Assembly: GCA_027030065.1 (NCBI GenBank)
Contig: JALVFK010000269.1
Span: 1-48,259, forward strand
Source: Desulfurococcales archaeon
Lineage (GTDB): Archaea; Thermoproteota; Thermoprotei_A; Sulfolobales; WANQ01
Length of the DNA: 48,259 nt
Reading direction: 5' to 3'
Below are positions 1,552 to 48,259 of this stretch, piece after piece. Position 1 is the first letter of the stretch, and each line of letters begins with the position of its first letter. The translations under genes and the position numbers were made by a program. A model generated the notes under the pieces. That model was not told where the DNA came from, ran no database searches, and worked only from the letters and a program-made list of their open reading frames with translations.

Positions 1552-1554
1552 AGG

Positions 1555-1812: not shown

Positions 1813-1819
1813 TTTACCC

Positions 1820-2194
1820 TCACCCCTTATCCTCTTCTAGATGATCTACTACTTTTGGTTCAACTGGAACAACCTTCGCTCTATGCGTTGCTCTCGCGAG
1901 AGCATGTGATCCAGTTGGAGCGGCAAGTACTATGAATAATGCAGTTACTATGGCGCCGCCCATAAGATACCATCTGTACTGGCCAAAGCTTTCAAGACTG
2001 GGTGCCATTAATGCTACTCCTATTAATGGATAGACTGCTCCACCTATGGCTCCTATCGTAGCAGCGTGAAGTCTAACGAAGAAGTTGGGAAATCTTAAGA
2101 GTCCTAGAGCGCCTATTAGATCGAATACTGCTCCAAGGCCTACGAGGCCCATACCTATGAAGAATATAATCGTTTTCACGAGTTCAATCAACAT
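1820..2194 (-). CDS. mnhG: Na+/H+ antiporter subunit G (MnhG/MbhC)
   Basis: GLGAVFDLIGALGLLRFPNFFVRLHAATIGAIGG motif. Confidence 0.85.
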   Translation of the reverse strand: MLIELVKTIIFFIGMGLVGLGAVFDLIGALGLLRFPNFFVRLHAATIGAIGGAVYPLIGVALMAPSLESFGQYRWYLMGGAIVTALFIVLAAPTGSHALARATHRAKVVPVEPKVVDHLEEDKG

Positions 2195-2478
2195 TATTCA
2201 CCTAGTTCTTTCTTTTCATAATATTTTGCAACAAATATGTCGAGAGCATAAGCCCATATGGCGAGAATAATAGCGCCTGGAATGAGAAAGGGTGATTTAA
2301 AGTATATTGCAAGAATTATCATAAACGCAGCTACATCGTATGATAATGCATCTATTGCCAGTACCGAATCAGGTATAGATGGGCCTTTAACAGCGCGGAT
2401 AACGTATATTATAAAGGCCGCCAAGAATACTGGGATTATTATTAGAACATAGGTTGTAGCAAGAGACTCTAGATTCAT
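2194..2478 (-). CDS. mnhF: Na+/H+ antiporter subunit F (MnhF/MbhB)
   Basis: VKGPSIPDSVLAIDALSYDVAAFMIILAIYFKSP pattern; one-base overlap with mnhG. Confidence 0.85.
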   Translation of the reverse strand: MNLESLATTYVLIIIPVFLAAFIIYVIRAVKGPSIPDSVLAIDALSYDVAAFMIILAIYFKSPFLIPGAIILAIWAYALDIFVAKYYEKKELGE

Positions 2479-2672
2479 CGCTATAAGCCCTCTTGGCCAG
2501 GTATAGGCCTCTGTTGAAAATTATTTAAAGTTTGTGTTTTATTCAAATATTAATTACCTATATATCCGAATTATCAAATTAGCAGATTAAATAGTTAGAT
2601 AAGCAAGATATAGTACAGCATAATAGCCTTAATATAAGAGTAGTACATAGCCCCTATACGAGGCGTAAGGAT

Positions 2673-3716
2673 ATGAGTAGTGGTGAACTAAGACCATACT
2701 TGATAGAGAAGTATGATGGAGACGTTATAATATCAACTGTATTGACCCAGGTCTCTGTGGGTGGTTTTAGGAATCCCCGCTATCAGAGGATAATGTTAGA
2801 CACACCTCTATCACGAGTAGAGAAAATAGATAAAGCACTTTTAGAGATTGCTGTAACAACACCCTTTAACCCATTGAATAGTAAGTGGAAGCTAGTTTTC
2901 GACGGGTTCACACTCACTAGAGAGTTCAAACCCCAACTATCTGTCGAGGAGGATGGAGCATATCATTCAAAACTCTTATTTGATATAACACCAGTAATAA
3001 AACCATATAATAGACACGCTGTGGGAGTTCAATTTGATGGCGCACAACCATTAACTATAGATCACGTAAACTTACTTGTATTCTATCCAACAAGTGAGGT
3101 AAAGACTAGTGTTGCATATTTCTCGGGAATGCTATTATTGAAACCTGGGGAAACAGTAGAAATTCCGATAAACATTAAGCCTATTGAGGGGGAGGATTTC
3201 TTAAAGATAATAGGAGTAATACCTTCAAAACAAGCAAAAATAGAGTTCTACTTAAACGGCAAAATGCTCAACAAGTTTGAGGGAGTTATCGGCGTTGAAG
3301 AAATAAGCTATAATGATAACATAGGGGTTTCTAGTGAGAACAAGTTAAAGATAGTGCACTTACCAGCCGAAACAAAGTATTATCCAAACATGTTTAGACT
3401 TTCAACAATTATTATTGGTAAAGCGAAATATTCCATGCCGGATATGGATATAGGGAATGTACGGATCCTCGAAGATTCAATAGAAGTGGAAATACGTAAC
3501 AATAATAATATCAAACCGGATCGAGTAGTCTTACTTGCCATCAGTTTAGGCAATATAATATTCCGTGAAAAGATAGAAGATTTCCCAGAAAACGGTGTAC
3601 AAGTCGTAAGAATACCGTTAAATAAAAACAAGGCTAAGACCTCACCCATAACTTTGAGGATAGTATGGAATAAGCTTAGTCGCTCAAGATTTAAGGAGAA
3701 GCGCATAGAACTATAA
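2673..3716 (+). CDS. Hypothetical protein (347 aa), likely beta-rich
   Basis: Long ORF in an AT-rich intergenic context; no recognised motif. Confidence 0.7.
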   Translation: MSSGELRPYLIEKYDGDVIISTVLTQVSVGGFRNPRYQRIMLDTPLSRVEKIDKALLEIAVTTPFNPLNSKWKLVFDGFTLTREFKPQLSVEEDGAYHSKLLFDITPVIKPYNRHAVGVQFDGAQPLTIDHVNLLVFYPTSEVKTSVAYFSGMLLLKPGETVEIPINIKPIEGEDFLKIIGVIPSKQAKIEFYLNGKMLNKFEGVIGVEEISYNDNIGVSSENKLKIVHLPAETKYYPNMFRLSTIIIGKAKYSMPDMDIGNVRILEDSIEVEIRNNNNIKPDRVVLLAISLGNIIFREKIEDFPENGVQVVRIPLNKNKAKTSPITLRIVWNKLSRSRFKEKRIEL

Positions 3717-3783
3717 AGAATGTAAACCTAGAATACTTTCACCCTACTACATTATATACTCTCCCTATTCTATTAGGGGTAAA

Positions 3784-4059
3784 ATGGGAACAATTCTTGC
3801 AGTAGAACATGGAAAACTTTATAGAGCTATAAACACGTTGAACACAAAGCTACTATACATAAGAAAGCAAGGTAAATATTATATCGGCGTCTTCCAAGGA
3901 AACAATGGTATACACATAACACATGTATCGTTGACAGGAGATAAATATTATTGTACATGTAACTACTATTTAATTACGGGAAAACCGTGTAAGCACATAG
4001 TATCTATGCTATTAGAGCTTAGGAAGCGGGGTCTACTACACGGTATTAAAATAAAATGA
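3784..4059 (+). CDS. Small SWIM zinc-finger protein
   Basis: CTCNYYLITGKPCKH matches CxCx(n)CxH. Confidence 0.8.
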   Translation: MGTILAVEHGKLYRAINTLNTKLLYIRKQGKYYIGVFQGNNGIHITHVSLTGDKYYCTCNYYLITGKPCKHIVSMLLELRKRGLLHGIKIK

Positions 4060-4085
4060 CCTTACATGTCGTAGATAAAAATAGA

Positions 4086-4150
4086 TGTGCTCAGCCGAAA
4101 CCTCCTCCAACATCCTCGGGGTTTCTGAGAGAGTCGTGTTCATCATAGCC
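4086..4150 (-). ncRNA. Candidate C/D-box sRNA
   Basis: Minus strand: ATGATGA (4146-4140), 12 nt, CAGA (4127-4124), spacer, degenerate C' ATGTTGG, 12 nt, CTGA (4094-4091); intergenic. Confidence 0.45.
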
Positions 4151-4189
4151 TAGATCACTCTATACACGGAACACGTTATAAGGTATTAC

Positions 4190-5533
4190 GTGCTCTGTAC
4201 ATTCAAGGAGGAGCGGGGAGAACAGTATTTGACAGATTGGTTCTTCGATATTATTGCCAGCGAGCTTCCTGTAGTCGAAGAACTTATAAGAAAATATAAT
4301 AGCATGACGAGTATACCTTCATGGATTAGAGATAGAATTAGCGATTGGTGGATTAATAGAGAAATAGATGCAAGCCTAGATAAAGTAGACTTAGCTGCAG
4401 TGGATGGCGGAGGAGGATATGCCGATCTCTTAGGCGGCGGTGGCTTGTACATTGCAAGAGCTGTAGCTGTTTATTCAAGTAGATCTAATCCTAGTAGAGA
4501 ATTATTAATAGATATTTTAAAGTATAGAGCGAGAGGATATTTAGACGTACTACGTATGCTAACAGAGCTAAAAGTAGCTCAAAAAGCAGTACAATATCTA
4601 TTACCTAACTCTATATTATTAATGGATGGAAGCCTCTATGTACAGATAAATTACCTAATTACAAAATTATTCAAAATAATTTCTAAACCAGATAGAGTAG
4701 GATTAGGCGAATTCTACCTACTTGACAGGTTACTAGAAACAATAGTAGAACTAATAAACTTACTGAAACGCGTTGAGAAGAAGAATATTCTGATAGCCTT
4801 TGTTAGTAAGGATTCTACCTTGAAGGTACTCAAAGAATACCTAGCATACATTTACTTTAAGGAAAAATATCCTCGACTTGCCGACCTTATGGAAAAATAC
4901 CCGGTAGGAAATAGGAGAGTTTTCTTAAGAATATATAAGGAGTCAAATGAACCAGAACTTAAATCTATGCTTAACCTCATATTAGATACTAGCTACAAAG
5001 ATGTACAATTAATTATGGATTTAGTTGGATCCGAGAAGGGATACACGAAACCCTTACTTCTCGGAGCACTAGCTGAACCAGTAAAGAGGCTTAAGGATAA
5101 GATCTATATCAAACAATTGTTTTCCGAAACAATGAACTTGTACCCCTTCCGAGAAAAACAAGAAGAGTTCAATGATCTAGTAGAGACTGTTATGAATAGA
5201 ATTGAGGACTTGAAAACCCCTATACTATCATACGTAAAGGTTTCGGAAAACGAACCACCACTAATGGTTGAAGTAGTTTCCCAGAAAAACATTATAGAGA
5301 CCATAGGGTCTCGGAGATTCATAGAGGAGACTCCCTATTTTAATAAAATAATAGAATTGTTATATAGAGATTACAAGGGAAGACGCTTCTACAACCTATG
5401 GCTAATGTATGCACACAACTACGCCAAGCTTTCACGCAAACAGTTCTTATATTATATAAGGTATATAGAGGCTCAGCTTAGTAGAAAGCACTTAAAGATA
5501 CCCTTTACAAGAAGATATAGCATGGAGGCTTAG
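4190..5533 (+). CDS. nurA: NurA-domain nuclease
   Basis: LAAVDGGGGYADLLGGGGLYIARAVAVYSS and LLMDGSLYVQ; directly upstream of a HerA-like ATPase; GTG start. Confidence 0.8.
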   Translation: MLCTFKEERGEQYLTDWFFDIIASELPVVEELIRKYNSMTSIPSWIRDRISDWWINREIDASLDKVDLAAVDGGGGYADLLGGGGLYIARAVAVYSSRSNPSRELLIDILKYRARGYLDVLRMLTELKVAQKAVQYLLPNSILLMDGSLYVQINYLITKLFKIISKPDRVGLGEFYLLDRLLETIVELINLLKRVEKKNILIAFVSKDSTLKVLKEYLAYIYFKEKYPRLADLMEKYPVGNRRVFLRIYKESNEPELKSMLNLILDTSYKDVQLIMDLVGSEKGYTKPLLLGALAEPVKRLKDKIYIKQLFSETMNLYPFREKQEEFNDLVETVMNRIEDLKTPILSYVKVSENEPPLMVEVVSQKNIIETIGSRRFIEETPYFNKIIELLYRDYKGRRFYNLWLMYAHNYAKLSRKQFLYYIRYIEAQLSRKHLKIPFTRRYSMEA

Positions 5534-5536
5534 CCA

Positions 5537-7675
5537 TTGACACTGCCAGAAAACAACGACTATAGTAGCCCGGAGGTAATAGGGAGAATAACTGGAGAAT
5601 CCACGCCATCCTATTTCGTAATGTCTATAAATCCCCTGAACCCACCACCACTCTACGAGTACGTGTTTATAGAATTAGATGAAATACCGCCAGGTGAGAG
5701 AGAACCCGCAAAGGTTAAGGTGATAGCACAGATAAGAGCTATAAAGAGAAAGGATATAGGATTAAACCCCAATCTTCCCTGGAGTGTTGTTGAGGGGGTA
5801 ACGGATACACAAACTCAAGATCAAGTAATAGCTATTGCAAGGATACTAGGCTATAAATGGAAGGATAAGATATACACGCTTAGACACGCACCTCCTGCTA
5901 ACACGTGGGTCTACAAGGCCCCCGATAAACTTCTCCAGGAATTCTATAGCGTACCAGTAGAACAAGGACTACACCTTGGTTTTCTTATAACACGCCCCAC
6001 TGTCCCGATATACTTAAACATGAAAGGAGTCAATAGACACATAGCAATAATAGCGGCAACAGGATCGGGTAAGACGTGGACTAGCATAGTGTTAATAGAA
6101 GAATTGCTGAAAAAAGGAGCAACTATACTAGTACTCGATCCCCATGGAGAATATGTTAAGATAAAGGAGACAATCCACTTACTTGGTGAGGAATACCGGG
6201 ACTCAGCAATAGTGTTGAAAGGACATAAGGATCAAGAAGGCGATATACTATACCGTATAAGTATAAGGAATTTGAACCTAGAGGAACTAGCAGCAATTGC
6301 AGGCATACCAGCTAATGCTCATAGACAGAAAGCGGTACTCTACGGATCAAAAACACTTGCAGACGTACTCTACGAGGCATTTAATGACCCCAAGCTTATT
6401 ACGCCAAAAGCGTTAGAAGACTTTATAGAAACAGCTATCATGTCTTTGGAAACTCTCCCAACGCGTGGTAAGTCTCTTAATAACTTTAAGGCCAACTTCT
6501 CCAAACTATTAAAGGAGAAAATGAATATAGATCTCAGTAACCTCGAAAAAGATGTCGGATACAAGAATAGAATAGATCTCAGCTTGAGAAGACTCTGGCT
6601 TGGATTAAAACGCGACATTGATACGGGATACGATGTTATAAGGTATATTGAGAACCTCATGAGGATTGGAGTATATGGTTCAGAAACAATCCCATTAAGA
6701 GAGATATTAAAGCCCGGGCACGTCACAATATTCAATCTAAGCGGGCTACGAAAAGAAGTACAAGACCACCTTGTAAACAATATCTTAACGAGAGTATTCA
6801 ATGCAAGAGTAAGACATAAGCGCGGTTTTAGAGGAGAGAAATACCCCTACCCCATAGTAATAATACTTGAGGAAGCCCATAGGTTTGCCCCACCAAAGAG
6901 CTATGAAGATACTTGGAGTAGAGAAATAATATCTAAGATAGCTGCTGAGGGAAGAAAGTTCGGCGTATTTCTTGTAGCAATAACACAGCGTCCAAGTAAA
7001 ATAGACTCCGACTTACTAAGTCAGTGTCAATCACAGATAATCTCAAGAATAGTTAACCCGAGAGACCAGGACGCAGTAAGAGATGCTAGTGAACAGTTAA
7101 GTCAAGATCTTCTAGATAACTTACCAGCACTTAATCCAGGAGAGGTTGTTGTAGTAGGCCCGCTTGCACCAGCACCCGTTATGATTAGGGTTAGGGATAG
7201 GGTATTAGACTATGCTGGAGCAGACATAAATGTTGTAGAAGAATGGAGTAATGCTATTAGATCAAAGATAAATAAAATAAGACTACTAGCCGATCTAAGG
7301 AGAGCTGTCGGCAAGGTTTTCGAAGTAAACATCGACTCTAATGAAAAATTACTGGAAGGACTTGCCAATATTCTATCACCTAATATAACATTACACGAAA
7401 ACATACTTGAATCAGCACTAAACATTCTATTAGAAGACAAGATCACAGACCTCCGATACGATGGAGAACTAGGTACAATAGCAGGCCAAGTTGACGGATG
7501 CGATGTTGAAATACGTTTAAGTGAAGGTTCATGGCGCTGTGAATGTGAAAGAAGAGTAAATCATCCATGCAAGCACGTAATAGCCCTTCTCCTCGGAGCT
7601 ATACATCAACGAAAAGTAGAACCAGAAGAACTTAGAAAAGCTATAAGCCTTAGACCTCTCAATACCTTGCTTTAA
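5537..7675 (+). CDS. herA: HerA-like ATPase with C-terminal SWIM zinc finger
   Basis: HAS-like N-terminus, Walker A AATGSGKT, Walker B VIILEEAHRFAPP, C-terminal CECERRVNHPCKH; TTG start. Confidence 0.85.
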   Translation: MTLPENNDYSSPEVIGRITGESTPSYFVMSINPLNPPPLYEYVFIELDEIPPGEREPAKVKVIAQIRAIKRKDIGLNPNLPWSVVEGVTDTQTQDQVIAIARILGYKWKDKIYTLRHAPPANTWVYKAPDKLLQEFYSVPVEQGLHLGFLITRPTVPIYLNMKGVNRHIAIIAATGSGKTWTSIVLIEELLKKGATILVLDPHGEYVKIKETIHLLGEEYRDSAIVLKGHKDQEGDILYRISIRNLNLEELAAIAGIPANAHRQKAVLYGSKTLADVLYEAFNDPKLITPKALEDFIETAIMSLETLPTRGKSLNNFKANFSKLLKEKMNIDLSNLEKDVGYKNRIDLSLRRLWLGLKRDIDTGYDVIRYIENLMRIGVYGSETIPLREILKPGHVTIFNLSGLRKEVQDHLVNNILTRVFNARVRHKRGFRGEKYPYPIVIILEEAHRFAPPKSYEDTWSREIISKIAAEGRKFGVFLVAITQRPSKIDSDLLSQCQSQIISRIVNPRDQDAVRDASEQLSQDLLDNLPALNPGEVVVVGPLAPAPVMIRVRDRVLDYAGADINVVEEWSNAIRSKINKIRLLADLRRAVGKVFEVNIDSNEKLLEGLANILSPNITLHENILESALNILLEDKITDLRYDGELGTIAGQVDGCDVEIRLSEGSWRCECERRVNHPCKHVIALLLGAIHQRKVEPEELRKAISLRPLNTLL

Positions 7676-7940
7676 AACCTCGGCTCCATAAGAGTTCTCT
7701 CAACTCCTTAGATAAGTTATAGCATCCCTCACCTTTCTCAATTAAACCCTTGTTTATGAGTCTAAATATTACTTCAAGTGGTTTCTCAACCTTATAGCGG
7801 TATTGTAACTCTCTTACAGCTATTATTTCACCAACAGAAATGTTTCGTAGAAAATAATCAAAGACTTTCAACTCGTCTTCTGATAAACTCTTTCTTATCT
7901 GCTCAATTTCTTCTGGATACCTCTTACTCATAGCCGTCAC
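7659..7940 (-). CDS. Small winged-helix-like protein
   Basis: 93 aa; SEDELKVFDYFLRNISVGEIIAVRELQYRYKVEKPLEVIFRLINKGLIEKGEGCYNLS resembles a wHTH. Confidence 0.6.
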   Translation of the reverse strand: MTAMSKRYPEEIEQIRKSLSEDELKVFDYFLRNISVGEIIAVRELQYRYKVEKPLEVIFRLINKGLIEKGEGCYNLSKELRELLWSRGFKARY

Positions 7941-8041
7941 CGTTCCTCTAAAATATCCCCATCTTTACTTTTTACTCTTAAAGCTTCTTAATAGGCTTCT
8001 GAGTACTCTAGGATAATTATTGAGATACATTTATAGGAGAA

Positions 8042-8239
8042 TCAAGGTGTTCTAGGAGGATGCCAGGAAGATTTCTCTTGACTCATAGTGTATGTTCTAT
8101 AATTATTTATCAGCATACTCAATGCATATCGTAGAACCTCGCTTCTACTGGAAAAAAGTCCGGCTTCCACTAGTTTATCTGCTTCTTCTATTAATTCTCT
8201 TGGAGCCTTAAATGTTATTAGTAGTACTCGTGAAGCCAT
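8042..8239 (-). CDS. Ribbon-helix-helix (CopG/NikR-like) regulator
   Basis: VLLITFKAPRELIEEADKLVEAGLFSSRSEVLRYALSMLI. Confidence 0.8.
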   Translation of the reverse strand: MASRVLLITFKAPRELIEEADKLVEAGLFSSRSEVLRYALSMLINNYRTYTMSQEKSSWHPPRTP

Positions 8240-8253
8240 AATGTATCACCATT

Positions 8254-8281
8254 GAGTAAATATAGATAGATATAGTTACTC
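8254..8281. promoter_or_regulatory. Candidate RHH operator (28-bp imperfect palindrome)
   Basis: gagtaaatatagatagatatagttactc: 11 of 14 symmetric pairs complementary; 14 bp upstream of the RHH start codon. Confidence 0.5.
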
Positions 8282-8355
8282 ATATCTGCTATAATAGGTA
8301 TCAAGTTATTGCTTTATTTAAAAACTCTATGGGCTATTGGAGAAGCGGAGAAACG

Positions 8356-9363
8356 CTAATAATACCATGTATTCAAATACGTGTGCTCATAGTATAATGG
8401 CTTTAACCCTCTACCAGCACTACATATATCATATAGAATACATCTACCATTCACGCACCATGGAGTTTTAGAACACTTCTCACTACACTTTCTACAAGAA
8501 GGCTTATCTCTTAAGCAACATGTTCTCCCAAACATCCATAGAAAGTCGTCTAACAATACTATATCAACACCTATTTTCTCTGCGAGAAGCTTGTATGCTT
8601 TCCTAACAGCTACTCTTAATACAACGTCTTCCCACCACTCAACTTCTCTCTTCTCCAAAATCTTCTTCTCCAATACTCCTTCTACTTCGACTATTCCAAG
8701 TCTCAATGCTATTCTTGTGAGATGATTGTCAACTGGTATCTCTATGTTCTCCCTATCAACTGGGTTAAAGAGTCCTCTCCTATTAATGAACTTGTAGAAT
8801 AGATATGACTTCTTTTCAACGGGGTCCTCGTATGCCCTAAATACTTTTAATCTATCTATTAGTCCGCCGTGGAGTGCTTTTAAATAGTTCTTGGATTCTT
8901 CTATGATTTTCATAACCATGCCGTCATATAGTTTTAAGAGCTTACGTCCTGCATCCCTTAGAAGCATTAAACGTACTTCTAGGTCTGGAGGCTCAACGGG
9001 CTTTGGTTTACTTACCGCTAACCAGTTCCTAACTGATTCGAGTGTTAGATTAGCCATATTTTCGGGTGTAAACCATTTGGGATCCTCGTAGTACTTCTTA
9101 GCCCCTAATCTGTATAGTAGGTCAGCTCCATGGAAGAATTCCCCGTCAACTATGCCCTCATAGTTGCGGTTAGGTCTACTGAGTCTATGGTCTATTGCAA
9201 CCATGAAGAAAAAGTATCTAAGAACGCTTTCTGGTTCATCGTTTTTACTTGGATAGTATTTGGGGTCTGTGAAGTCATCTAACGGTATGTTTAGTTTACC
9301 CTTAATACGCTTAGCTATTTCATCTATTCTATCATAGTTTATCTTAACGATGGTCTCGGTCAC
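8356..9363 (-). CDS. Divergent EndoIII/HhH-GPD-like protein with Fe-S-type cysteine cluster
   Basis: IPVDNHLTRIALRLGI resembles the EndoIII VDTHV.RV..RLG motif; Cys-rich CCLRDKPSCRKCSEKC. Confidence 0.55.
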   Translation of the reverse strand: MTETIVKINYDRIDEIAKRIKGKLNIPLDDFTDPKYYPSKNDEPESVLRYFFFMVAIDHRLSRPNRNYEGIVDGEFFHGADLLYRLGAKKYYEDPKWFTPENMANLTLESVRNWLAVSKPKPVEPPDLEVRLMLLRDAGRKLLKLYDGMVMKIIEESKNYLKALHGGLIDRLKVFRAYEDPVEKKSYLFYKFINRRGLFNPVDRENIEIPVDNHLTRIALRLGIVEVEGVLEKKILEKREVEWWEDVVLRVAVRKAYKLLAEKIGVDIVLLDDFLWMFGRTCCLRDKPSCRKCSEKCSKTPWCVNGRCILYDICSAGRGLKPLYYEHTYLNTWYY

Positions 9364-9452
9364 GTGCTATCTCCTCTAGAAAGCCGGGTTCTTTAAGCAA
9401 AAATTGTTTATCCCTAAAACTCGTTATTTTATAATGGTGATTTACCAGGGAA

Positions 9453-10061
9453 GTGAGCGGATGGTATAGTTCTAATAAATTAAGAACGGATTTACTTGTT
9501 GTAAAAGGTTATCTTAGGAGTAACTTAGTTGAAGCTGACAAGATAGTAGTTGATGGAGCTCTTATATCAAATACTATTGAGAGTAAACAGATAGAAGTTA
9601 CTGGTATAGTTAAAGCTGATGCCGTTAATACGCATATCCTTAAAGCAAGAGGACTTATTGATGTAAAGGAGATTAACGGTATTGAGTCCTACATATATGG
9701 GCGTGTTAACTCGTACAGGATTAGCTCTAAGACCCTTGTATTAGAGATAACTGGTACAAGCCGTATAGATGAAGTTGAATCAGAAGAACTTGTCATTAAA
9801 AGCATTGTACAGTACGACACTCGTGGACGCTTATTAGCAAGAAAGGTTTACGCTATTAAAGTCTACTCTGAGTTTCTGAACGCTAATCTTCTAGTTTGCT
9901 GTAAGTGTAGTATGGGTGACTATAATAGGATATCCAGACTAGTATACGGTGAGATTATTGACGCGAGCCCTACTTCTGTTTTCAGTGAGAAACCTCTAAG
10001 CATACCCGATCTCTGCACCGTAGAAAATGTTGAAGAGCTACGCTTTGTTGTTCCCGCATGA
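9453..10061 (+). CDS. Bactofilin-like / beta-helix polymer-forming protein
   Basis: Repeated short beta-rungs (VVKGYLRSNLVEADKIVVDGALISNTIESKQIEVTGIVKADAVNTHILKARG). Confidence 0.55.
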   Translation: MSGWYSSNKLRTDLLVVKGYLRSNLVEADKIVVDGALISNTIESKQIEVTGIVKADAVNTHILKARGLIDVKEINGIESYIYGRVNSYRISSKTLVLEITGTSRIDEVESEELVIKSIVQYDTRGRLLARKVYAIKVYSEFLNANLLVCCKCSMGDYNRISRLVYGEIIDASPTSVFSEKPLSIPDLCTVENVEELRFVVPA

Positions 10062-10235
10062 TTTCTCCGCTAATACTCTAATCGCTATAAGAGTCTCCTT
10101 GAGCTCCGTAGTCAATTGGTATAATTCTAGTTTCTTTCCTTTACTCAGCGTCCTCCCATCATATACTTCTAAGTGTACTTTGTCTAATTCCTCTACTATC
10201 CTAATGGCCTTATCAATGTATTCAACTATGTCCAC
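10038..10235 (-). CDS. Small hypothetical protein (65 aa)
   Basis: MDIVEYIDKAIRIVEELDKVHLEVYDGRTLSKGKK; overlaps the phosphorylase stop by 14 bp on the same strand. Confidence 0.55.
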   Translation of the reverse strand: MDIVEYIDKAIRIVEELDKVHLEVYDGRTLSKGKKLELYQLTTELKETLIAIRVLAEKSCGNNKA

Positions 10236-11052
10236 GACTCCTTTCCTCTAATTCACGTTGATATCTATACTCTTCTCTTATACGTACGAGTATTTCGGCT
10301 ACAAGTTTGCTGGCTTCAAGTAAGCGGTCTTTAACCTTCTTTGCTTGAACGTTTCTCTCAGAAGCACGTTCAAGATCACCTGGCATTATTCCATGCGGTA
10401 TGCTACTATTAACTACTAGTATTGATAACGCCTTCAGCATCTTTAGGCTCGACATAGTATATAGTGTTGCAGTCTCCATATCCATAGCCGATACACGGGT
10501 CTTGCTCCACTTCTGTACTATTTCTTCAACATTAGATAGAATGTCTACACTTAGTACTGGTGCCGTATAATATTTTATCTCGTGATCATATATGCGCGAA
10601 TAAGTTCTCAATATATCCATCGTATACCATATCAGATCGTAGGAAGCATAAGCCGGATACTCTATCGGTGCGTAATGCCTACTCGTCCCATCAGCTCTCA
10701 CTGCTGCAGAAGCAATTATTATATCTCCAATACTAAGCTTTGGATCTAGAGCTGTAGCATAGCCTACTTTTATGAAAACTCTTCCCCCTAGTCTCGAGTA
10801 TTCTTCAACGAGAAGCGCTAGGCTAGGAGCACCTATACCCGTAGACCCTATTGTCAAATCTATAACCTTGTATTTACCAGTAACAGTAAAGTAGGGGTCT
10901 ATGCCCTCTACCCTAGATTTTACCTCAAATTCTTCAAGCTGTGAGACAAGCTCCTCAACGTATGTTCTAGAAGGTAATACTATTATATTCGATGATACAT
11001 CACTCGAACTACACTTAGTATATGGTTGAACTATATTGAGACCAGATGCCAT
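10222..11052 (-). CDS. Nucleoside (uridine-type) phosphorylase family protein
   Basis: STGIGAPSLALLVEEYSRLGGRVFIKVGYA and VSAMDMETATLYTM. Confidence 0.85.
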   Translation of the reverse strand: MASGLNIVQPYTKCSSSDVSSNIIVLPSRTYVEELVSQLEEFEVKSRVEGIDPYFTVTGKYKVIDLTIGSTGIGAPSLALLVEEYSRLGGRVFIKVGYATALDPKLSIGDIIIASAAVRADGTSRHYAPIEYPAYASYDLIWYTMDILRTYSRIYDHEIKYYTAPVLSVDILSNVEEIVQKWSKTRVSAMDMETATLYTMSSLKMLKALSILVVNSSIPHGIMPGDLERASERNVQAKKVKDRLLEASKLVAEILVRIREEYRYQRELEERSRGHS

Positions 11053-11124
11053 CTACGTGATCCCTTACACTATGCAACCTAGTTCTACTGATAAAGGGAG
11101 GGGGGTAAATTTAAAAGGGTTAGG

Positions 11125-11553
11125 GTGCTCAAAGCCAATGAGGGGGAGGGGGATATGGTGGAAGTTATCAGTAATGCAATAGTGAAGCCTATCGAAAGAG
11201 TGGTAGGGCAACACGTCTACGGCAACCTCTACGAATGTGATCCGAGCATCTTATCGAACGAAGAGCACTTGAAGAAAATTGTCGTAGAGGCAGCAGAAAT
11301 AGGGAACATGCAGCTACTTGAAGTAAAGACATGGAAAATAGGGTTAGGGGTAAGTGTTGTAGCAATAATATTGGAGAGCCACATAACAATCCACACGTGG
11401 CCCGAGTTCCGTTTCGCTACAGTAGACGTGTACTCTTGTGGAAGCCATACTGACCCGGAGAAAGCATTCAACTATATAGCAAAAGCCTTGAAGGCTAGGA
11501 GAGTAGTGAGAGGCTACGCTGACCGCTCATTAGAGGAGGATCACCGGGAATAG
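11125..11553 (+). CDS. AdoMet decarboxylase-family pyruvoyl proenzyme (AdoMetDC or its crenarchaeal ArgDC paralogue)
   Basis: Processing site [27 protein letters not shown] start. Confidence 0.85.
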
Positions 11554-11608
11554 TGATCGCTCCCCCGGGGATCGGTCAGCCCGGGGGAGCTGGAGTGGTG
11601 CTGACCGA
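11539..11608 (+). ncRNA. Candidate structured GC-rich RNA (hairpin with possible pseudoknot) downstream of the AdoMetDC-family gene
   Basis: 11-bp stem gctcccccggg/cccgggggagc (11559-11569/11580-11590); loop tcggtcag (11572-11579) complementary to ctgaccga (11601-11608). Confidence 0.5.
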
Positions 11609-11652
11609 GACCTTCTGATCGTAAAGGTATTTTACATTATAGATGTTGTGTT

Positions 11653-12786
11653 ATGCGGAGAAGAGTCCTCATTATTGGGGGCGGTGTAAGCGGTCTATTT
11701 CTCGGTAGCTTAATAGGTGATGGTGTTAGAATAATAGAGGAGCATTCTGTTATTGGGTTTCCCGAGCATTGCACTGGAATTATAAGTACTAATACTCTTT
11801 ATAGAATGCGTTTGCCTAGGAGACTTGTGGAGGACTCATATCGTAGATTCATACTATACTTCTATGGAGGTTATCGTATAGTTATTAGCGGTTCACCCCT
11901 AGCAGTAAAGGTTGATAGGCCTGGTGTTGAAAAAGAATTATACTATAGGGCTCTAGATGAGGGTGCTGAAATAGTATTAGGTGAACGTGTAGAAGATATT
12001 GCAAGTGATGGCAGAATATCATTGAATGGAGGTCTTGTTAAAGGGGAATTAGTAGTATTGGCTGAAGGCTACAAACAATATTTTTCGAGAAAACTCGGCT
12101 TGGTTAGAAAGAGTAGAAGAATACCAGCTATTCAGGCTAGAATTAGGGGACAAGTCAATATACGTGACGTCGAAGTATACTTCTCTAGTCTTACTCCAAA
12201 ATACTTCTCATGGCTTGTCCCAATAGGTGATAGAGAAGCCGTCATAGGATTGGCTGCAGAAGAGAAGGGATTGTTGACTAGGCTTCAACTACTGTTAAAG
12301 GTATTAGAGAAAACGGGAAGGATAAGCAGTTATAAGATAACGAAGATTTATGGTGGACTGGTTCTAAGGGGGCCTTTAGGCGAGCTTACCAGGGATAGAG
12401 TTGTCGCGATAGGCGATAGTATTGGCATGGTTAAACCATTGACTGGTGGTGGCTTATACCCTATATCTATTGCAGGCCTCATACTCTCTAAGCTTATCAA
12501 GAGCTATCTTAACGGTTCAATGAGTTTACTCGAGCTAAGAGAAGAGTATAGTAGTAGAGTAGAGAAAATGTTAAAGAATCTTAGAGTAACGTATAATCTA
12601 CTTAATATCATAGACTTTAGAGTAGAGGATTACTTAAGGGTAATTGCAAAAGGCTTGAATAGAATAGGCTTGGAAACAGTCATAGATGAAGTAGAATACG
12701 ACGACCATTTAAAGAACTTGCTCACTGCCTTGAAGCCTAAGAATATTGTCAGGCTTACTGGTTCTATGATAACTGGGTTTATATGA
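11653..12786 (+). CDS. Geranylgeranyl reductase family FAD-dependent oxidoreductase
   Basis: N-terminal GGGVSGLFLGSLIGDGVRIIEEHSVIGFPEHCTGIIS; VVAIGDSIGMVKPLTGGGLYPIS. Confidence 0.85.
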   Translation: MRRRVLIIGGGVSGLFLGSLIGDGVRIIEEHSVIGFPEHCTGIISTNTLYRMRLPRRLVEDSYRRFILYFYGGYRIVISGSPLAVKVDRPGVEKELYYRALDEGAEIVLGERVEDIASDGRISLNGGLVKGELVVLAEGYKQYFSRKLGLVRKSRRIPAIQARIRGQVNIRDVEVYFSSLTPKYFSWLVPIGDREAVIGLAAEEKGLLTRLQLLLKVLEKTGRISSYKITKIYGGLVLRGPLGELTRDRVVAIGDSIGMVKPLTGGGLYPISIAGLILSKLIKSYLNGSMSLLELREEYSSRVEKMLKNLRVTYNLLNIIDFRVEDYLRVIAKGLNRIGLETVIDEVEYDDHLKNLLTALKPKNIVRLTGSMITGFI

Positions 12787-12797
12787 GAAGGTCTTGA

Positions 12798-13046
12798 TTA
12801 CTCCTTTAGCTTATTGATCTTCTTTAAAAACTCTCTCAATATCTTAATATTCCATTCATGCTTTGACCTACGCCTCTTGTCTACGTAGAGACCTAGCCTC
12901 ATAGCTTCCTTCGGCGTTAAACCTACTTCTTTTAGCTCTAGTATACTGAAGCCTCTTCCAACGCGGAGTCCTTTATCTATCATTCCGTCTTTTATTAATC
13001 TGGGCTTCTTTACGTAAGCTGCAGGAGGATATACTTCCTCAGCCAT
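12798..13046 (-). CDS. rpl13e: Ribosomal protein eL13 (L13e)
   Basis: GLRVGRGFSILELKEVGLTPKEAMRLGLYVDKRRRSKHEWNIKILREF. Confidence 0.85.
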   Translation of the reverse strand: MAEEVYPPAAYVKKPRLIKDGMIDKGLRVGRGFSILELKEVGLTPKEAMRLGLYVDKRRRSKHEWNIKILREFLKKINKLKE

Positions 13047-13189
13047 TTTACTACACCCCTTTTTAAGCTGAAGGAGTATGAGGTCGTGGAAGCTTATTAG
13101 CTTGACTCTGGTTTCCGCTTAGTATCGGAGCTAAATATATAGTTTACCTAGTGCTAGTATATGCTACGAACGAGGTGTTATATAGGTAT

Positions 13190-13483
13190 ATGAGGATTAA
13201 ACGATTAGTATTAGATGTATTAAAACCATTAAAAGAACCAAGCCTAGTAGACCTCGCAATAGAGATCTCTAGAATTAGAGGCGTTGAGGGAGTAAACGTC
13301 ACCGTTATGGAGGTCGACGTAGAGACTATGACCCTAACTGTTACAATAGAAGGCGATGACATAAACTTCGAAGACGTTAAGAGAGTCATAGAGGACTCCG
13401 GCGCAGTAATACACAGTATCGACCAAGTTGTTGCGGGAGAACGCTTCGTAGAAATACCCCCATCACGTAGAGGTATGGCGTGA
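13190..13483 (+). CDS. DUF211 family protein
   Basis: [58 protein letters not shown]; the ORF opens at 13151 but family-like homology begins at the ATG at 13190. Confidence 0.8.
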
Positions 13484-14442
13484 GCAAAGGTATGGCTGGA
13501 CGCGTATGCGATAAATGTAAGACGAGGCCCGCAATAGTATATCAGAAGCATAGTGGGAGATTCCTTTGTAAGGAATGCTTCATAGAGGATATTATTGAGA
13601 GGATCCGTAGAGAAGTAGAAAAGTGGAGAATGATAGAACCCGGCGACACCATACTCTTAGCTGTTTCTGGAGGCAAAGACAGCTTCGTATTACTAGACGT
13701 TATGCCGCAAATACATGACCCATCAAAGCTAATAGCATTATCAATAGTTGAAGGCATAGAGGGCTATAATAGAGCAGAAGACATAGAGAAAATGAAGAAA
13801 TATGCCATGGAACGTGGTGTAGACTTCATAAAAACGAGTTTCAAAGAATTCATTGGAGCTAGCCTAGACGAACTCGTAAAGAGAGCATGGGATCGCGGCC
13901 TCAATGTTTCACCGTGCACTTTTTGTGGTACTCTTAGGAGAAGGATCATGAACTACTATGCAAGAAATCTAGGAGTAGACAAAGTCGCTACTGCCCATAA
14001 CTTAGACGACGAGGTACAGACATTATTACTGAATATTTTGAGAGGAGATCGAATGAGGCTTATCCAGTCTCATCCACGAGCACCAATTCTAAGTACTCGT
14101 ATAGTACGTAAAATAAAGCCGTTGAGAAAGATCTATGAGTGGGAGGCGACAATGTATGCGTTCTTAAAAGGCTTTAAGTTCCAGGAAACAGAGTGCAGAT
14201 ATATCTATTTAAGGCCAACACTGAGGGCAAAGGTTAGAGACCACTTATACGCGTTGGAAGAAGAGTCTCCAGGAAGCCTTCTAAGAATACTTGAAAGTAT
14301 GGATGAAATCTTATGGAAGCTTATTGGAACCCATAGAAAACTACCAAGCCTACCAGTATGTAAGAAATGTGGTGAACCAACAAGCTACGGTCGCGAACTA
14401 TGCAAGGTTTGTGAGTTGTTAGAGAAAATAGGGATCTATTAG
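13480..14442 (+). CDS. tRNA 2-thiolation PP-loop enzyme (TtuA/Ncs6/TtcA family)
   Basis: Zn motifs CDKCKTRPA and [20 protein letters not shown]-loop [24 protein letters not shown]. Confidence 0.9.
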
Positions 14443-14458
14443 AATAAATTCTAACATA

Positions 14459-14824
14459 CTAGCATATCTTTGTGCCAGACGGTACATCTCCATCAACTGT
14501 TAGTAAAACGGGTTTCTCGACTTTACCGGATTTTATATCCTCCTTACATCCAGCTGCTAGAAGCATTCCTTGACTGAGAACTCCACGTATCCTCTTCGGC
14601 TCAAGGTTTGCTACAACAATTATCTTTTTACCTATAAAGTCCTCGGGCTTATACCATTCGCCTAAACCAGCAACAAGTTGTCTTGTTCCAAGTTCTCCTA
14701 GATCAACTATCAATTTTATTAAACGTGTACCCGGTATGGGTTCTGCTTCCTTTACAACTCCTACACGTAGGTCTAATTTAGCGAAATCGTTTATTGATAT
14801 GGTTTGCCCAGACACATACATCAC
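14459..14824 (-). CDS. tRNA-binding OB-fold protein (MetRS beta/CsaA-like)
   Basis: FAKLDLRVGVVKEAEPIPGTRLIKLIVDLGELGTRQLVAGLGEWY...VVANLEPKRIRGVLSQGMLLAA. Confidence 0.85.
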   Translation of the reverse strand: MMYVSGQTISINDFAKLDLRVGVVKEAEPIPGTRLIKLIVDLGELGTRQLVAGLGEWYKPEDFIGKKIIVVANLEPKRIRGVLSQGMLLAAGCKEDIKSGKVEKPVLLTVDGDVPSGTKIC

Positions 14825-14886
14825 CTACAGCTTTACAATTCCCTAGCTTTCCACTAGAGGTAAAAACTATTATGGAAAGATCGAGT

Positions 14887-14949
14887 AGGGTCTGCTGGGT
14901 AAGTTTTCTTCATTTCCTAGACTCTGGCCGGGAGTAAGTCTTCATCCCC
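14887..14949 (-). ncRNA. Candidate C/D-box sRNA with variant A.A k-turn boxes
   Basis: Minus strand: GGGG-ATGAAGA-(12 nt CTTACTCCCGGC)-CAGA-GTCTAGGAA-ATGAAGA-(12 nt AAACTTACCCAG)-CAGA-CCCT. Confidence 0.45.
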
Positions 14950-15084
14950 GATACTGTACACGGTTTCCTTGAAATATATCTGTCTTTAGAGACCCTAATA
15001 ACTCTCTTAACAGTGGTTTTATTAAACTATGTAGGCAAGAATAGTATTGTATAGTAGGCTTGGGAGAGGGGTATCTGTACAACT

Positions 15085-16266
15085 ATGAGGATTAAGGGTT
15101 ACGCGGAACTACCACTACATGATGGGCATGTCCCACGGTGGCTTGCAGAACTTATGAAAAAGCTAGCCCGAGGTATTGTTGAAGTAATAGTATTAGAGTA
15201 TGGTCCAGCTGAACTCGTTAGAAGACTTAGTAGTCCTCTATGGTTTCAAGCATTCAATAATATTATTGGAATGGACTGGGACAGTAGTGGTTCGACAACT
15301 GTTACAGTAGGCATACTTAGACAAGTCTTGGAGAAGGAAGAGCTTGGAGTTCTCATAGTAGGTGGTAAGGGCAAGATGATGCTCCGAGTCCCCGATGAAC
15401 TTCCAAGAGCTTTAGATAGGCTTGGGCTCAGCGATAAACGTGTTGGAGAACTTGTAACTGCTAGTAGGATTTCAGCAAAAGTGGATTCTAGTCTACTCCA
15501 GGACGGATATCAGCTCTATCATCATGCAATAATAGTTTCAGAAGATGGATTATGGGGTGTGATTCAGCAGGGAATGAATATTGAGGAGAGACTAGCGAGA
15601 CGTTATCATTGGCTCTCAAGTAAGGTGGAAGACTATGTAGTTGAACCCCACTATGGTATTGCTAGCAACTATAAGGGGAACGCGTTAAATCTTGTTGCAA
15701 GAGAAGCCGAGGGCGCTAGGAAGACAATACTGGATCTTGCCAGAGAGAAGCCAGAGAAAACTAGTAGACTAGTAGCTGAGGCTTCTAGAATTATTCGTGG
15801 TGATCAGAGCATACTTAAATGGCTCACCGTGAACAAGCCTTCTTCTGGTGTAGTAGGATATGATGATCGTTTAAGGATACTATACTATCGTCCAGTAAAG
15901 CTTACAAAGAGGTTATTGAAAACCCTTAACACGTTATATGAGAGCCAACCAAGAAATTTCAAAGAACTACTACTTATCCGTGGAGTAGGTCCGGAAACTA
16001 TTCGAGCACTAGCACTCGTGTCAGACCTCATATACAAGGAACCCCCATCGTGGAGTGACCCGGTAACAGACCCACTAGATCCCTTCCGATACGCCTATGC
16101 TTTTGGCGGAAAGGATGGTATACCGTATCCAGTAAAACGTGAAGTCATGATTGAGGCTATAGAGTTTCTAAGAGAAGCAATAGAGAAGGCTAGAATAGGT
16201 GATAGAGAAAAACTCCAAGCACTGAAGAGGTTGAGAAGACTTCTAGGAGAACAAGATCGTTTATGA
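15085..16266 (+). CDS. DUF763 family protein
   Basis: RIKGYAELPLHDGHVPRWLAELMKKLARGIVEVIVLEYGPAELVRRLSSPLWFQAFNNIIGMDWDSSGSTT. Confidence 0.85.
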   Translation: MRIKGYAELPLHDGHVPRWLAELMKKLARGIVEVIVLEYGPAELVRRLSSPLWFQAFNNIIGMDWDSSGSTTVTVGILRQVLEKEELGVLIVGGKGKMMLRVPDELPRALDRLGLSDKRVGELVTASRISAKVDSSLLQDGYQLYHHAIIVSEDGLWGVIQQGMNIEERLARRYHWLSSKVEDYVVEPHYGIASNYKGNALNLVAREAEGARKTILDLAREKPEKTSRLVAEASRIIRGDQSILKWLTVNKPSSGVVGYDDRLRILYYRPVKLTKRLLKTLNTLYESQPRNFKELLLIRGVGPETIRALALVSDLIYKEPPSWSDPVTDPLDPFRYAYAFGGKDGIPYPVKREVMIEAIEFLREAIEKARIGDREKLQALKRLRRLLGEQDRL

Positions 16267-17439
16267 TTTGGGAATTAAGGGAACCGCTTTCAAGTATCCT
16301 TCTTCTATAGTTATCTCTGGTGTTATATGCCGGAGCTTTTCTCTATCACCTATTATCTTTAGGAGCTTACGCTCATGTGCCTTTAAAGGCTTGCGTATTC
16401 TTTTCGGATACCCCTCCATTTTTTCACTACAAATATAGCGATCCTCCCTACATATTTCCTTAAACTTTTCATTGACTTTATCTAAGGGTAAGGGTTTCTC
16501 TAATAGACTCTTAAAGAATTCGTAGAGCGTTACCCTCTTAACATAGTCTTTGAACATGTAGAAGCCACAGCAATCCTCTACTGTATGTAGACTGAATAAC
16601 CCCTCCTTGCATGTAGCAAATCCTACATTGTATTCCTTGAGTGTTTTTCTAAGCCCCATATATTCTCTAAGTAGTATCTTATGCTCTGGCTTGTAGAGGG
16701 GTTTGCCTCCTTCAACAACTCTAATGCTATATAAGTTGAGGGCTGGTATGCTTATACCTAGTCTTCTCGCAATAATTCTCCACTCGTCTAGTGGGAGGCG
16801 GAGTCCTTCAACTATAACTTGTCTAACTCCTATATCACTAAGTAGTGATGCTACTTCACCATAGTCGTAGGACCTTAATGTTATCCCCGGTATATAGGGT
16901 GATAGTCTAAGTAGTACTGGTATGTTTTCTTGAGAGAGCCTTCTCATAGCCTCTAATCGCTCCTTCACAGCTGGTGCTAACGGCTCCAGTAGTCGTGATA
17001 TATGTTCGTCTAGGCTGGAAATAGAATATTGGACTATGACTAGTCCTTGATCCGAGAGCTTCTTAACTATTCCTAACCAGGGGTTCTTTAATAACAGTGT
17101 CGACTTAGTATTTATAACTAATGGATAATTATACTTTAACGCTGTCTTCATTATCTTATGAGTAAACTTATAGTTTTCTTCAACTGGTTGAAAAGGATCA
17201 GTTAACGTAGCAAGCCTAGCTGGTATAGGTTTGAGACCTTTCTGATAGATTTTCCTTGCAACAGCCTTGAAGTTGATGAAAGCCTCTGGTCTAGGTCTAG
17301 GTTTTCCTACACGACTCCAGTACCATCGACTATAACAATAGATACAATTGAACATACACGTATTGTAAGGCTCTATTCTTATAAGAGAGTAGCATAGAGG
17401 CGACATTATATTACTAACGTTTATCACTAACTCTGGCAT
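16261..17439 (-). CDS. Radical SAM protein (spore-photoproduct-lyase-like)
   Basis: PYNTCMFNCIYCYSRWYW (Cx3Cx2C); LTDPFQPVEENYKFTHKIM. Confidence 0.85.
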   Translation of the reverse strand: MPELVINVSNIMSPLCYSLIRIEPYNTCMFNCIYCYSRWYWSRVGKPRPRPEAFINFKAVARKIYQKGLKPIPARLATLTDPFQPVEENYKFTHKIMKTALKYNYPLVINTKSTLLLKNPWLGIVKKLSDQGLVIVQYSISSLDEHISRLLEPLAPAVKERLEAMRRLSQENIPVLLRLSPYIPGITLRSYDYGEVASLLSDIGVRQVIVEGLRLPLDEWRIIARRLGISIPALNLYSIRVVEGGKPLYKPEHKILLREYMGLRKTLKEYNVGFATCKEGLFSLHTVEDCCGFYMFKDYVKRVTLYEFFKSLLEKPLPLDKVNEKFKEICREDRYICSEKMEGYPKRIRKPLKAHERKLLKIIGDREKLRHITPEITIEEGYLKAVPLIPKS

Positions 17440-17490
17440 TACTTATAGATCCCTCACTACATATCTTGTTATTAGATAGTAAAAATAACA

Positions 17491-17507
17491 ACATAATATC
17501 ATTATGT
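17491..17507. promoter_or_regulatory. Palindrome in divergent hydrogenase/radical SAM promoter region
   Basis: ACATAAT-ATC-ATTATGT perfect 7-bp arms. Confidence 0.3.
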
Positions 17508-17620
17508 AACGATTATTTAGAATAATCAGGCTATGGGTTAAAAGTTTCAGATTTTAGGAAAAGTTTTATAATATTTGATAAAAACCCTTTAATCTCGGAC
17601 ATTAAATAGGTGCTGTTTCT

Positions 17621-18118
17621 ATGGGCCTTATCAGCATACTACGCTGGGGAGTCAGTAGGAGCCCATGGCTGCTTCACTTCAATACTGGTGCTTGTAATGG
17701 TTGTGATATAGAGGTTTTAGCTGCAATAACACCACTATACGATCCAGAACGTTACGGTGTAAAACTATCCCCCAGTCCCCGTCATGCTGACATAATAATC
17801 GTTACTGGTGTTGTAACTAAGAAAGCTGCTGAGAGACTTAAAAGAATATACGAGCAGGTACCAGAGCCCAAAGTAGTTGTTGCTGTTGGAGCGTGTGCTA
17901 TTAGTGGAGGTGTATTTCAGGGAAGCTATGCTCACGTTAGTGGCGTTGATAAAGTAGTACCCGTTGACGTTTATGTTCCAGGATGTCCACCTAGGCCAGA
18001 TGCGATATTGGAGGGAATTCTTAAGGCAGTACAGATACTTGAGGAAAAAGCTAGGCAGCTCGAAGCACAAGGTGTGAGTACAAGTAGTAGTGGAGAAGTT
18101 ACTGCAGGTGGAAACTGA
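17621..18118 (+). CDS. mbhJ: Group 4 [NiFe]-hydrogenase small subunit (MbhJ/NuoB-like)
   Basis: NTGACNGCDIEVLA, VVAVGACAISGGVF and VPGCPPRPDAILEGI cluster-ligand motifs. Confidence 0.88.
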   Translation: MGLISILRWGVSRSPWLLHFNTGACNGCDIEVLAAITPLYDPERYGVKLSPSPRHADIIIVTGVVTKKAAERLKRIYEQVPEPKVVVAVGACAISGGVFQGSYAHVSGVDKVVPVDVYVPGCPPRPDAILEGILKAVQILEEKARQLEAQGVSTSSSGEVTAGGN

Positions 18119-18558
18119 TGGCTCTCAAAGATCTTCTATCAAATTATGGTGAACTGAAAAAGTATAGGAAGGATAATAGATTCTATATAACGGTTGCTCC
18201 TACACTAATACGTGAGATTACGAGCAAACTAGTTAAAGAATACAAAGACGGAATATATATTTCAACAATTACCCCTGTTGACTTGATCAAGGAGGGAGTA
18301 ATTGAGGTAGACTATGAGTTCCAAATATTATCCGAGAAGACCTTTCTCGTAGTTAAAACGAGGATACCACGTGATAAATCAGAGATAGATAGCATTGTAG
18401 ATATTCTACCAGGAGCAAAGGTATTGGAGCAAGAAGCCTACGACCTTATGGGCGTGTATTTCAAGGGGAACCCATATCTACGCAAACCCTTCCTACTACC
18501 AGAGCACATGGCCCAAGAAACCCCGTTGAGAAAAGATTGGAAACCTAGCAAGAGGTGA
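18118..18558 (+). CDS. mbhK: NuoC-like hydrogenase subunit (MbhK)
   Basis: GAKVLEQEAYDLMGVYFKGNPYLRKPFLLPEH typical of NuoC; ATGA and GTGA overlaps with neighbours. Confidence 0.85.
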   Translation: MALKDLLSNYGELKKYRKDNRFYITVAPTLIREITSKLVKEYKDGIYISTITPVDLIKEGVIEVDYEFQILSEKTFLVVKTRIPRDKSEIDSIVDILPGAKVLEQEAYDLMGVYFKGNPYLRKPFLLPEHMAQETPLRKDWKPSKR

Positions 18559-47348: not shown

Positions 47349-47425
47349 GCCGCCGTAGCTCAGCCCGGTAGAGCGCCGGCCTTGTAAGCCGGTGGCCGCG
47401 GGTTCGAATCCCGCCGGCGGCTCCA
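47349..47425 (+). tRNA. tRNA-Thr (anticodon TGT), CCA encoded
   Basis: Acceptor GCCGCCG/CGGCGGC; anticodon arm CCGGC-CTTGTAA-GCCGG; T-arm GCGGG-TTCGAAT-CCCGC; terminal CCA. Confidence 0.95.
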
Positions 47426-47523
47426 CATATACTATTTACTTATATAATGCATAAAATGTAGTCGTTTGAGACGATAGTCAAGATAATCAAGACTCTAGGC
47501 GTGGTCAGGTAACAAGGTTCTCT

Positions 47524-47769
47524 TTAACAATCTTCTTCGTATGCCTTCAGGAAGTCTTCTCTATCTATTTCTGCTAGTTGGAGTACACCAAGGAGAGTAC
47601 CAGGCTTCAACTCTGGGTGAAGTGGTACAACAGTCACTATTTTTCTATCACCAGCATACTTGACTAGGACTATGTGACTCCCACGCTGTCTTCTCGCAGT
47701 AAACCCGAATTTCTTGATAAGTAGTTCTACAACTTCACGCCCTGACAGCCTTGGGAGCCTTCGCCTCAA
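47524..47769 (-). CDS. hicA: HicA-like mRNA interferase toxin
   Basis: LSGREVVELLIKKFGFTARRQRGSHIVLVKYAGDRKIVTVVPLHPELKPGTLLGVLQLAEIDREDFLKAY. Confidence 0.88.
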   Translation of the reverse strand: MRRRLPRLSGREVVELLIKKFGFTARRQRGSHIVLVKYAGDRKIVTVVPLHPELKPGTLLGVLQLAEIDREDFLKAYEEDC

Positions 47770-47971
47770 CTTCTAGCACACCTACAATGCTTTTGTCGAG
47801 TTGCTCCAACGTCTCTAACGTCTCGGGAACCTCTTCCATGTACAACTCTAGTGCCTCTCGGAGATTTTCAACAGCCTCCTCAACTGTTTTACCTTGGCTA
47901 GTAACCCCTGTAGCAACCTCTCTGGCAACATACATATCCTCCTCACGCCAAACAATGACCCTTATGCGCAT
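47735..47971 (-). CDS. hicB: HicB-like antitoxin
   Basis: MRIRVIVWREEDMYVAREVATGVTSQGKTVEEAVENLREALELYMEE; 35-bp overlap with hicA. Confidence 0.85.
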   Translation of the reverse strand: MRIRVIVWREEDMYVAREVATGVTSQGKTVEEAVENLREALELYMEEVPETLETLEQLDKSIVGVLEVEAKAPKAVRA

Positions 47972-48132
47972 CCTAGGAGAACACCCCTTAAGACTATACT
48001 GCTTCTAGGATAAAATCCTTGGTGGCTCGTAGATGTTTCAAAAAGCATCAATGAATATCTTCTTAGATATTGCACTACGCATAAGATATTTCAGCTTTCC
48101 ATTGCTTACTGAAATATTCTTTTCGAGAATCT

Positions 48133-48189
48133 GGCCTTGTAAGCCGGTGGCCGCGGGTTCGAATCCCGCCGGCGGCTCCACATATACTA
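48133..48189 (+). pseudogene. 3' fragment of tRNA-Thr (att-like copy)
   Basis: Reads identical to 47378-47434 from the anticodon arm through CCA plus 9 flanking nt; no 5' half of the tRNA upstream. Confidence 0.9.
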
Positions 48190-48259
48190 ATGTCTCTTAA
48201 GATCATTGATTAATCATACTTCATGTTGTTTTATTATGTTAACTGTCTATGTGTGTGTT

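Follow-up and report, generated by a model that had tools for sequence, protein, structure and literature searches.

A 755-bp hicBA unit at an archaeal tRNA-Thr gene: a probable toxin-antitoxin cassette mobilised in trans

The window, a stretch of 48,259 nucleotides from a Desulfurococcales archaeon, contains one tRNA gene, a tRNA-Thr(TGT) located by ARAGORN. A direct-repeat scan of the window returns a single family of two copies, identical at 57 of 57 nucleotides and spaced 755 bp apart. The first copy lies inside the intact tRNA gene and the second lacks the tRNA 5' half, confirming both the coordinates and the tRNA arrangement given in a preliminary description of the locus. The only coding content between the copies is hicA and hicB, overlapping and both on the minus strand, which the open reading frame list bears out. 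This combination of repeat and hicBA occurs once in the window's whole genome, and the contig stops 70 bp beyond the second copy, at 48259. Chance is ruled out as the source of the repeat, given 57 identical bases 755 bp apart and an identical layout in other genomes. The site is arranged as follows.

47349..47425, plus strand: intact tRNA-Thr(TGT), the integration target (ARAGORN; orthologue in genome G002 at L039:3298-3374)
47378..47434, plus strand: first 57-bp copy, attL, the tRNA 3' half plus 9 nt (repeat scan); its first 49 nt are the core common to other elements
47435..47523, no strand: left end of the element, alignable with other hicBA left ends (alignments)
47524..47769, minus strand: hicA toxin gene, 81 aa, TTG start, overlapping hicB (PF07927, E=1.6e-13)
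47735..47971, minus strand: hicB-like antitoxin gene, 78 aa (DUF7387, E=6.7e-11; HicB_lk_antitox, E=2.9e-4)
48073..48132, plus strand: conserved right end, common to elements with other toxin-antitoxin (TA) genes (R1 model match 48073-48135, 41.5 bits, E=1.9e-10)
48089..48114, no strand: 26-bp dyad TTTCAG-N14-CTGAAA, proposed integrase arm-type site (pattern searches); its arms extend to ATATTTCAG/CTGAAATAT
48133..48189, plus strand: second 57-bp copy, attR, tRNA 3' half only (repeat scan)
48190..48259, plus strand: host sequence on the right, colinear with the unoccupied G002 site (64 of 65 aligned bases identical)

The hicA product carries the HicA toxin domain, scoring 51 bits against a cut-off of 27. 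The hicB product matches DUF7387 best in Pfam, above the cut-off, with similarities to HicB_lk_antitox (21.4 bits, cut-off 27) and UPF0150 (4.6e-5) that both fall below theirs; the name HicB follows from this weak match together with gene order. Compared with the units of three other genomes (G128, G099 and G092), hicA has a dN/dS of 0.07-0.09 and hicB of 0.05-0.14, indicating that both genes are kept under purifying selection. HicA searches detected no homologue in phages and a single distant cyanobacterial match in plasmids.

In G002, a genome of the same genus, the tRNA-Thr site is devoid of both hicBA and the right end. Its left flank is 95% identical to that of the window over ~1 kb, continuing through the tRNA, after which the right flank resumes. 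As both flanks of the window's insertion match one G002 contig, the insertion is not an assembly join. An empty site, anticipated in a close relative, is therefore present, but it is not a clean one: ~43 nt (L039 3375-3417) separate the tRNA from the common flank, with ~30-40 nt after the tRNA absent from the window's right flank. The first part of these 43 nt resembles the window's left element end (p about 0.0005), and its likeness to the left ends of other units is not significant, both judged against mononucleotide shuffles. The extra nucleotides may be the scar or remnant of a lost cassette rather than part of a virgin pre-integration site. In G001, of the same genus, the contig (L011, G001:C107:1-940) terminates where the att core begins, a break that a repeated core interrupting the assembly would produce.

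The same hicBA unit is found in distant hosts. Four genomes of family f5 (G092, G128, G099 and G120) carry it at 78-79% DNA identity over 755-763 bp, and G087 (family f7) carries a copy with a decayed right end, in which homology stops 111-118 nt before the end of the core. The comparisons included up to 2 kb of flanking sequence, leaving homology free to run past the cores; even so, the f5 homology to the window begins inside the tRNA and ends at most 2 nt from the core's end. A VapBC unit of 1152-1161 bp, compared between f5 and f8, is likewise bounded by tRNA and core. Pyruvate kinase is 41% (G092), 38% (G099) and 42% (G120) identical to that of the window's genome, against 64% for G003, a member of the same family. 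The corresponding HicA/HicB identities are 85/90% (G092), 88/82% (G099), 88/85% (G128) and 81/80% (G003), the same-family copy being less similar to the window than the f5 copies. Such similarity between distant hosts (HicA 85-88%, HicB 82-90%, pyruvate kinase 38-42%) indicates that hicBA moved as a unit, with the reservation that most hosts are metagenome-assembled genomes, in which the family of single contigs could be wrong while the cassette junctions lie within contigs. The hosts include Thermodiscus sp., Aeropyrum sp., and Acidilobaceae and Desulfurococcales metagenome-assembled genomes. Two findings uphold the proposal that the repeats are attL and attR of an integrated element: the site lies unoccupied in G002, and elsewhere this unit is embedded in unrelated flanks where homology ceases at the cores. 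Neither conservation of the tRNA fragment with hicBA at unrelated loci devoid of att structure nor vertical conservation across the order without empty sites was found.

The 60 bp preceding the second core are conserved and matched in 20 of the 214 genomes of the order, the weakest being partial matches of which some are probably chance. The R1 model of this right end was built from 15 sequences, the window among them; the window is one of the more divergent, scoring 41.5 bits against 50-70 for most, and lacks a TATTTRTA stretch present in the others. The genes between the cores vary and comprise hicBA, an AF2212-like VapB with a PIN protein (PF01954, PF01850), a second PIN pair of 114 aa, UPF0175 with DUF3368, and TumE (PF20126), so that one right end is common to at least four TA families, hicBA plus at least three others. 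Units of the TTTCA type sit at tRNA-Thr(TGT) or tRNA-Arg, often in tandem arrays, which occur at tRNA-Thr(TGT) in G116, G063, G115, G104 and G128. The G116 array has cores at L073 806, 2179 and 3451, with degenerate cores farther on, and the G063 array at L048 5080, 6241 and 9248. Two side observations were made: in G017 (L057 4329-5254) a DUF2283 + DUF4258 pair lies between tRNA-Thr cores 878 bp apart with no recognisable dyad, and the VapBC units of L047 and L048 have a common left-end inverted repeat, AAGCACTACA-TCCC-TGTGGTGCTT, 40-70 nt past the tRNA core.

These data bear on whether the locus is a larger element deleted down to its TA pair or a minimal unit mobilised in trans, two possibilities that the preliminary description had left side by side. 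Under the first, a larger integrase-bearing element decayed within the tRNA gene and left a hard-to-lose TA pair between its att sites. Integrase relics occur at such sites (G103, G069, G107 and G116), many array members are visibly decayed, and archaeal elements are known to lose the integrase gene after integration (PMC8371274). Independent decay predicts varied end points, whereas the hicBA units measure 751-763 bp from core to core across families f1, f5 and f7 and one VapBC type 1152-1161 bp across families, with both ends alignable; purifying selection on hicBA across units and the single right end behind at least four TA families also argue against it. We therefore regard in-place deletion as improbable and favour the minimal trans-mobilised unit, because the ends and the length are kept across f1, f5 and f7 and the right end accompanies at least three other TA families; the trans step itself is inferred.

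What stays constant within the right end is a dyad of 26 bp, TTTCA-N16-TGAAA, located ~42 nt before the tRNA T-loop. A pattern combining dyad and T-loop with 30 nt of slack matches in 8 genomes, with matched lengths all of 78-80 nt, including tRNA-Arg fragments with different anticodons. A search for TTGCA-N-TGCAA yields 19 sites, distributed over 12 genomes and lying for the most part at tRNA-Arg. Of 34 sites spanning two dyad classes and tRNA-Thr, -Arg and -Asp fragments, 32 place the dyad end 41-43 nt from the T-loop, in patterns that allowed ~25-30 nt of slack; the 34 sites are not 34 independent events, as many tRNA-Thr sites are related copies. Reversed-pattern controls for these searches gave 0 matches. 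The TTGCA class accompanies VapBC at tRNA-Arg in G027 (two loci, the second with a PIN gene only), G074, G116, G126, G133 and G003, and some of its sites carry other cargo (G135, G146). Two complete Aeropyrum genomes, G027 and G074, which we take to be those of A. pernix and A. camini, contain the TTGCA/VapBC class only.

Three other origins of the right end were considered. A coding remnant, namely the N-terminal part of an integrase gene running antisense to the tRNA in the manner of SSV1, is rejected since several copies have stops in the antisense frames shortly past the core. A TA operator is unlikely, the same dyad occurring with different TA families and in both gene orientations. A viral origin is disfavoured by the absence of the right-end pattern from the viral contig collection; a looser pattern matched one phage-like contig with different spacing, judged a chance match. 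A class-level search of 15 further genomes outside the order found no TTTCA-type ends, in a survey that covers one order well and other classes hardly.

The fixed geometry also bears on homologous recombination between conserved tRNA-Thr genes and 3' fragments, which would require no site-specific recombinase. Such exchange would find near-identical tRNA sequence in the cores and, if unequal, could also yield tandem copies. The core, at ~50 bp, offers little length for homologous exchange among distant hosts, and this explanation does not account for the fixed-distance dyad, the same dyads in integrase elements and the match of left and right classes; we consider it quite unlikely.

Candidate helper enzymes are encoded near the cassettes. 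In G103, a 150-aa N-terminal integrase fragment lies directly downstream of a cassette, and as a query it retrieves integrases in 37 of the 214 genomes. Full-length members measure ~420-460 aa and match PF16795 (E down to 6e-27), the type found near the arrays. In an AlphaFold2 model (mean pLDDT 81, pTM 0.47) the C-terminal part aligns with the catalytic domain of the SSV1 integrase (TM 0.84), and the N-terminus is modelled as a helical domain, with weak helix-turn-helix (HTH) matches. Wherever a tRNA was located, the integrase gene begins ~55-170 nt downstream, and in most cases a dyad lies close to the gene start or overlaps it. These dyads vary by lineage and comprise TTTCA, TTGCA, GTTCCC, GTTTCC and TGTCCCA, the last identified by eye; integrases of the TTTCA class include those of G073 and G192. 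The left dyad that adjoins integrase genes is missing from the cassettes, and no integrase-type dyad is present in the window's left end (47435-47523).

In each of two bounded integrase elements, the two ends share one dyad class: a 17.1-kb element in G073 at tRNA-Arg with TTTCA dyads and an 8.2-kb element in G055 at tRNA-Asp with TTGCA dyads. The former (L205, G073:C4:241500-261400, positions 1298-18500, tRNA-Arg(CCG)) encodes a type IIG restriction enzyme-methyltransferase and BrxL behind the integrase and is possibly a defence element; the latter (L217, G055:C30:225000-240000, oriented 3333-11640, tRNA-Asp(GTC)) has a 46-bp perfect core repeat. TTTCA-dyad integrase relics lie at two tRNA-Thr(TGT) sites, alone in G069, of the same genus as the cassette host G063, and directly after the cassette in G103; a further relic lies past the VapBC unit at tRNA-Arg in G116. 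An intact integrase occupies tRNA-Thr(TGT) in G084, with another dyad, GAGTTCCC/GGGAACTC. Among the order genomes searched, no intact integrase turned up that has the TTTCA dyad and also sits at tRNA-Thr(TGT). A PF16795 search of the window's own genome (97.6% complete, 272 contigs) gave no match, so its hicBA copy is probably static now. Separately, L107, L108, L105 and L106 contain a second, ~450-aa tyrosine integrase family (weak PF00589) just downstream of tRNA-Thr(GGT), tRNA-Val and tRNA-Gly, including in a probable A. pernix genome.

A host Xer-type recombinase (PF00589) could instead move the cassettes, as XerCD does with Acinetobacter dif modules. About one strong Xer-like gene is present in most of 20 genomes examined, and PF16795 in only 9 of 22. 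The cassettes nevertheless bear the end signature of PF16795-integrase elements, their core is tRNA sequence, and the array hosts G104 and G063 have no PF00589 match; this explanation is the least probable of those considered.

We propose, at a probability of about 0.7 and on the evidence of sequence comparison, that the 755-bp unit is a non-autonomous TA cassette mobilised in trans by SSV1-like, HTH-bearing integrases of larger elements. Its circular form would carry hicBA as sole cargo and an attP composed of the right-end dyad, the tRNA-Thr(TGT) 3'-half core and the left end. A larger element would supply a tyrosine integrase in trans; this enzyme would bind to the dyad as an arm-type site, presumably through its N-terminal HTH domain, and catalyse recombination between the core and the tRNA gene, so that the left side keeps an intact tRNA and the right side a 3' fragment. 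Successive insertions at the cores would generate tandem arrays of different TA cassettes. Cassettes would presumably also be excised, and the TA pair may resist such loss through retention by addiction. Crossover mapping from core mismatches gave p=0.25. Larger integrase-carrying elements with the same DNA signature are probably what moves the cassettes.

Archaeal tRNA-targeted integration, tandem elements and integrase gene loss have been described (PMC8371274), and the SSV-type and classical elements resemble the cassettes in their tRNA 3'-half att cores, intact tRNA, tandem integration and, in the apparent helper, an SSV1-like catalytic domain. The hicBA unit has the direct repeats, intact tRNA and unoccupied site of such elements and lacks an integrase of its own; in contrast to them (PMC8371274), the cassettes measure 0.75-2 kb and contain a TA pair only, and the helper gene, which att does not split, has an N-terminal HTH. 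Integrons, including archaeal ones, carry TA cassettes (PMC9668308) and likewise form tandem arrays of small, promiscuous, TA-rich cassettes with a recombinase encoded elsewhere, whereas here the target is a tRNA gene, the repeated core is tRNA sequence following a 26-bp dyad instead of an attC, the right end folds modestly as a single strand (z=-2.4), and the integrases seen are SSV1-like. Acinetobacter dif/pdif modules (PMC12907356) are also small, carry TA pairs in many cases, form module islands and do not encode their recombinase; they differ in using Xer sites with host XerC/D, while the cassettes end in directly repeated tRNA 3' halves, with a left limit in the tRNA, and involve an element-type integrase. 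Integrative mobilisable elements (IMEs; PMC5704250) and phage satellites similarly parasitise another element's functions, but IMEs encode their own integrase and the cassettes no mobility protein. The archaeal MITEs SMN1 and SM3A (PMC3718332) are small derivatives relying on a trans-acting enzyme; they are gene-free with transposase terminal inverted repeats, unlike the site-specific tRNA integration and functional cargo here. The open-access literature yielded no account of TA units at tRNA genes that lack an integrase and share an integrase-type end, and this family of tiny elements in the tRNA genes of hyperthermophilic archaea is apparently undescribed.

The cassettes offer a concrete vehicle for the high and variable TA load of hyperthermophilic archaea, as units, 0.75-2 kb in size, that pass from one distant host to another while encoding no mobility protein. 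The proposed mechanism predicts that the dyad class determines which integrase moves which cassette and the tRNA core where it goes, and trans-mobilisation is testable with one protein and two short DNAs. More speculatively, the tRNA genes of hyperthermophilic Thermoprotei might anchor TA cassette arrays in an integron-like gene capture, driven in trans by dyad-specific HTH-integrases with at least four or five dyad classes as a specificity code. The finding bears on the clustering of TA genes at tRNA genes and on the origin of integrase-less islands.
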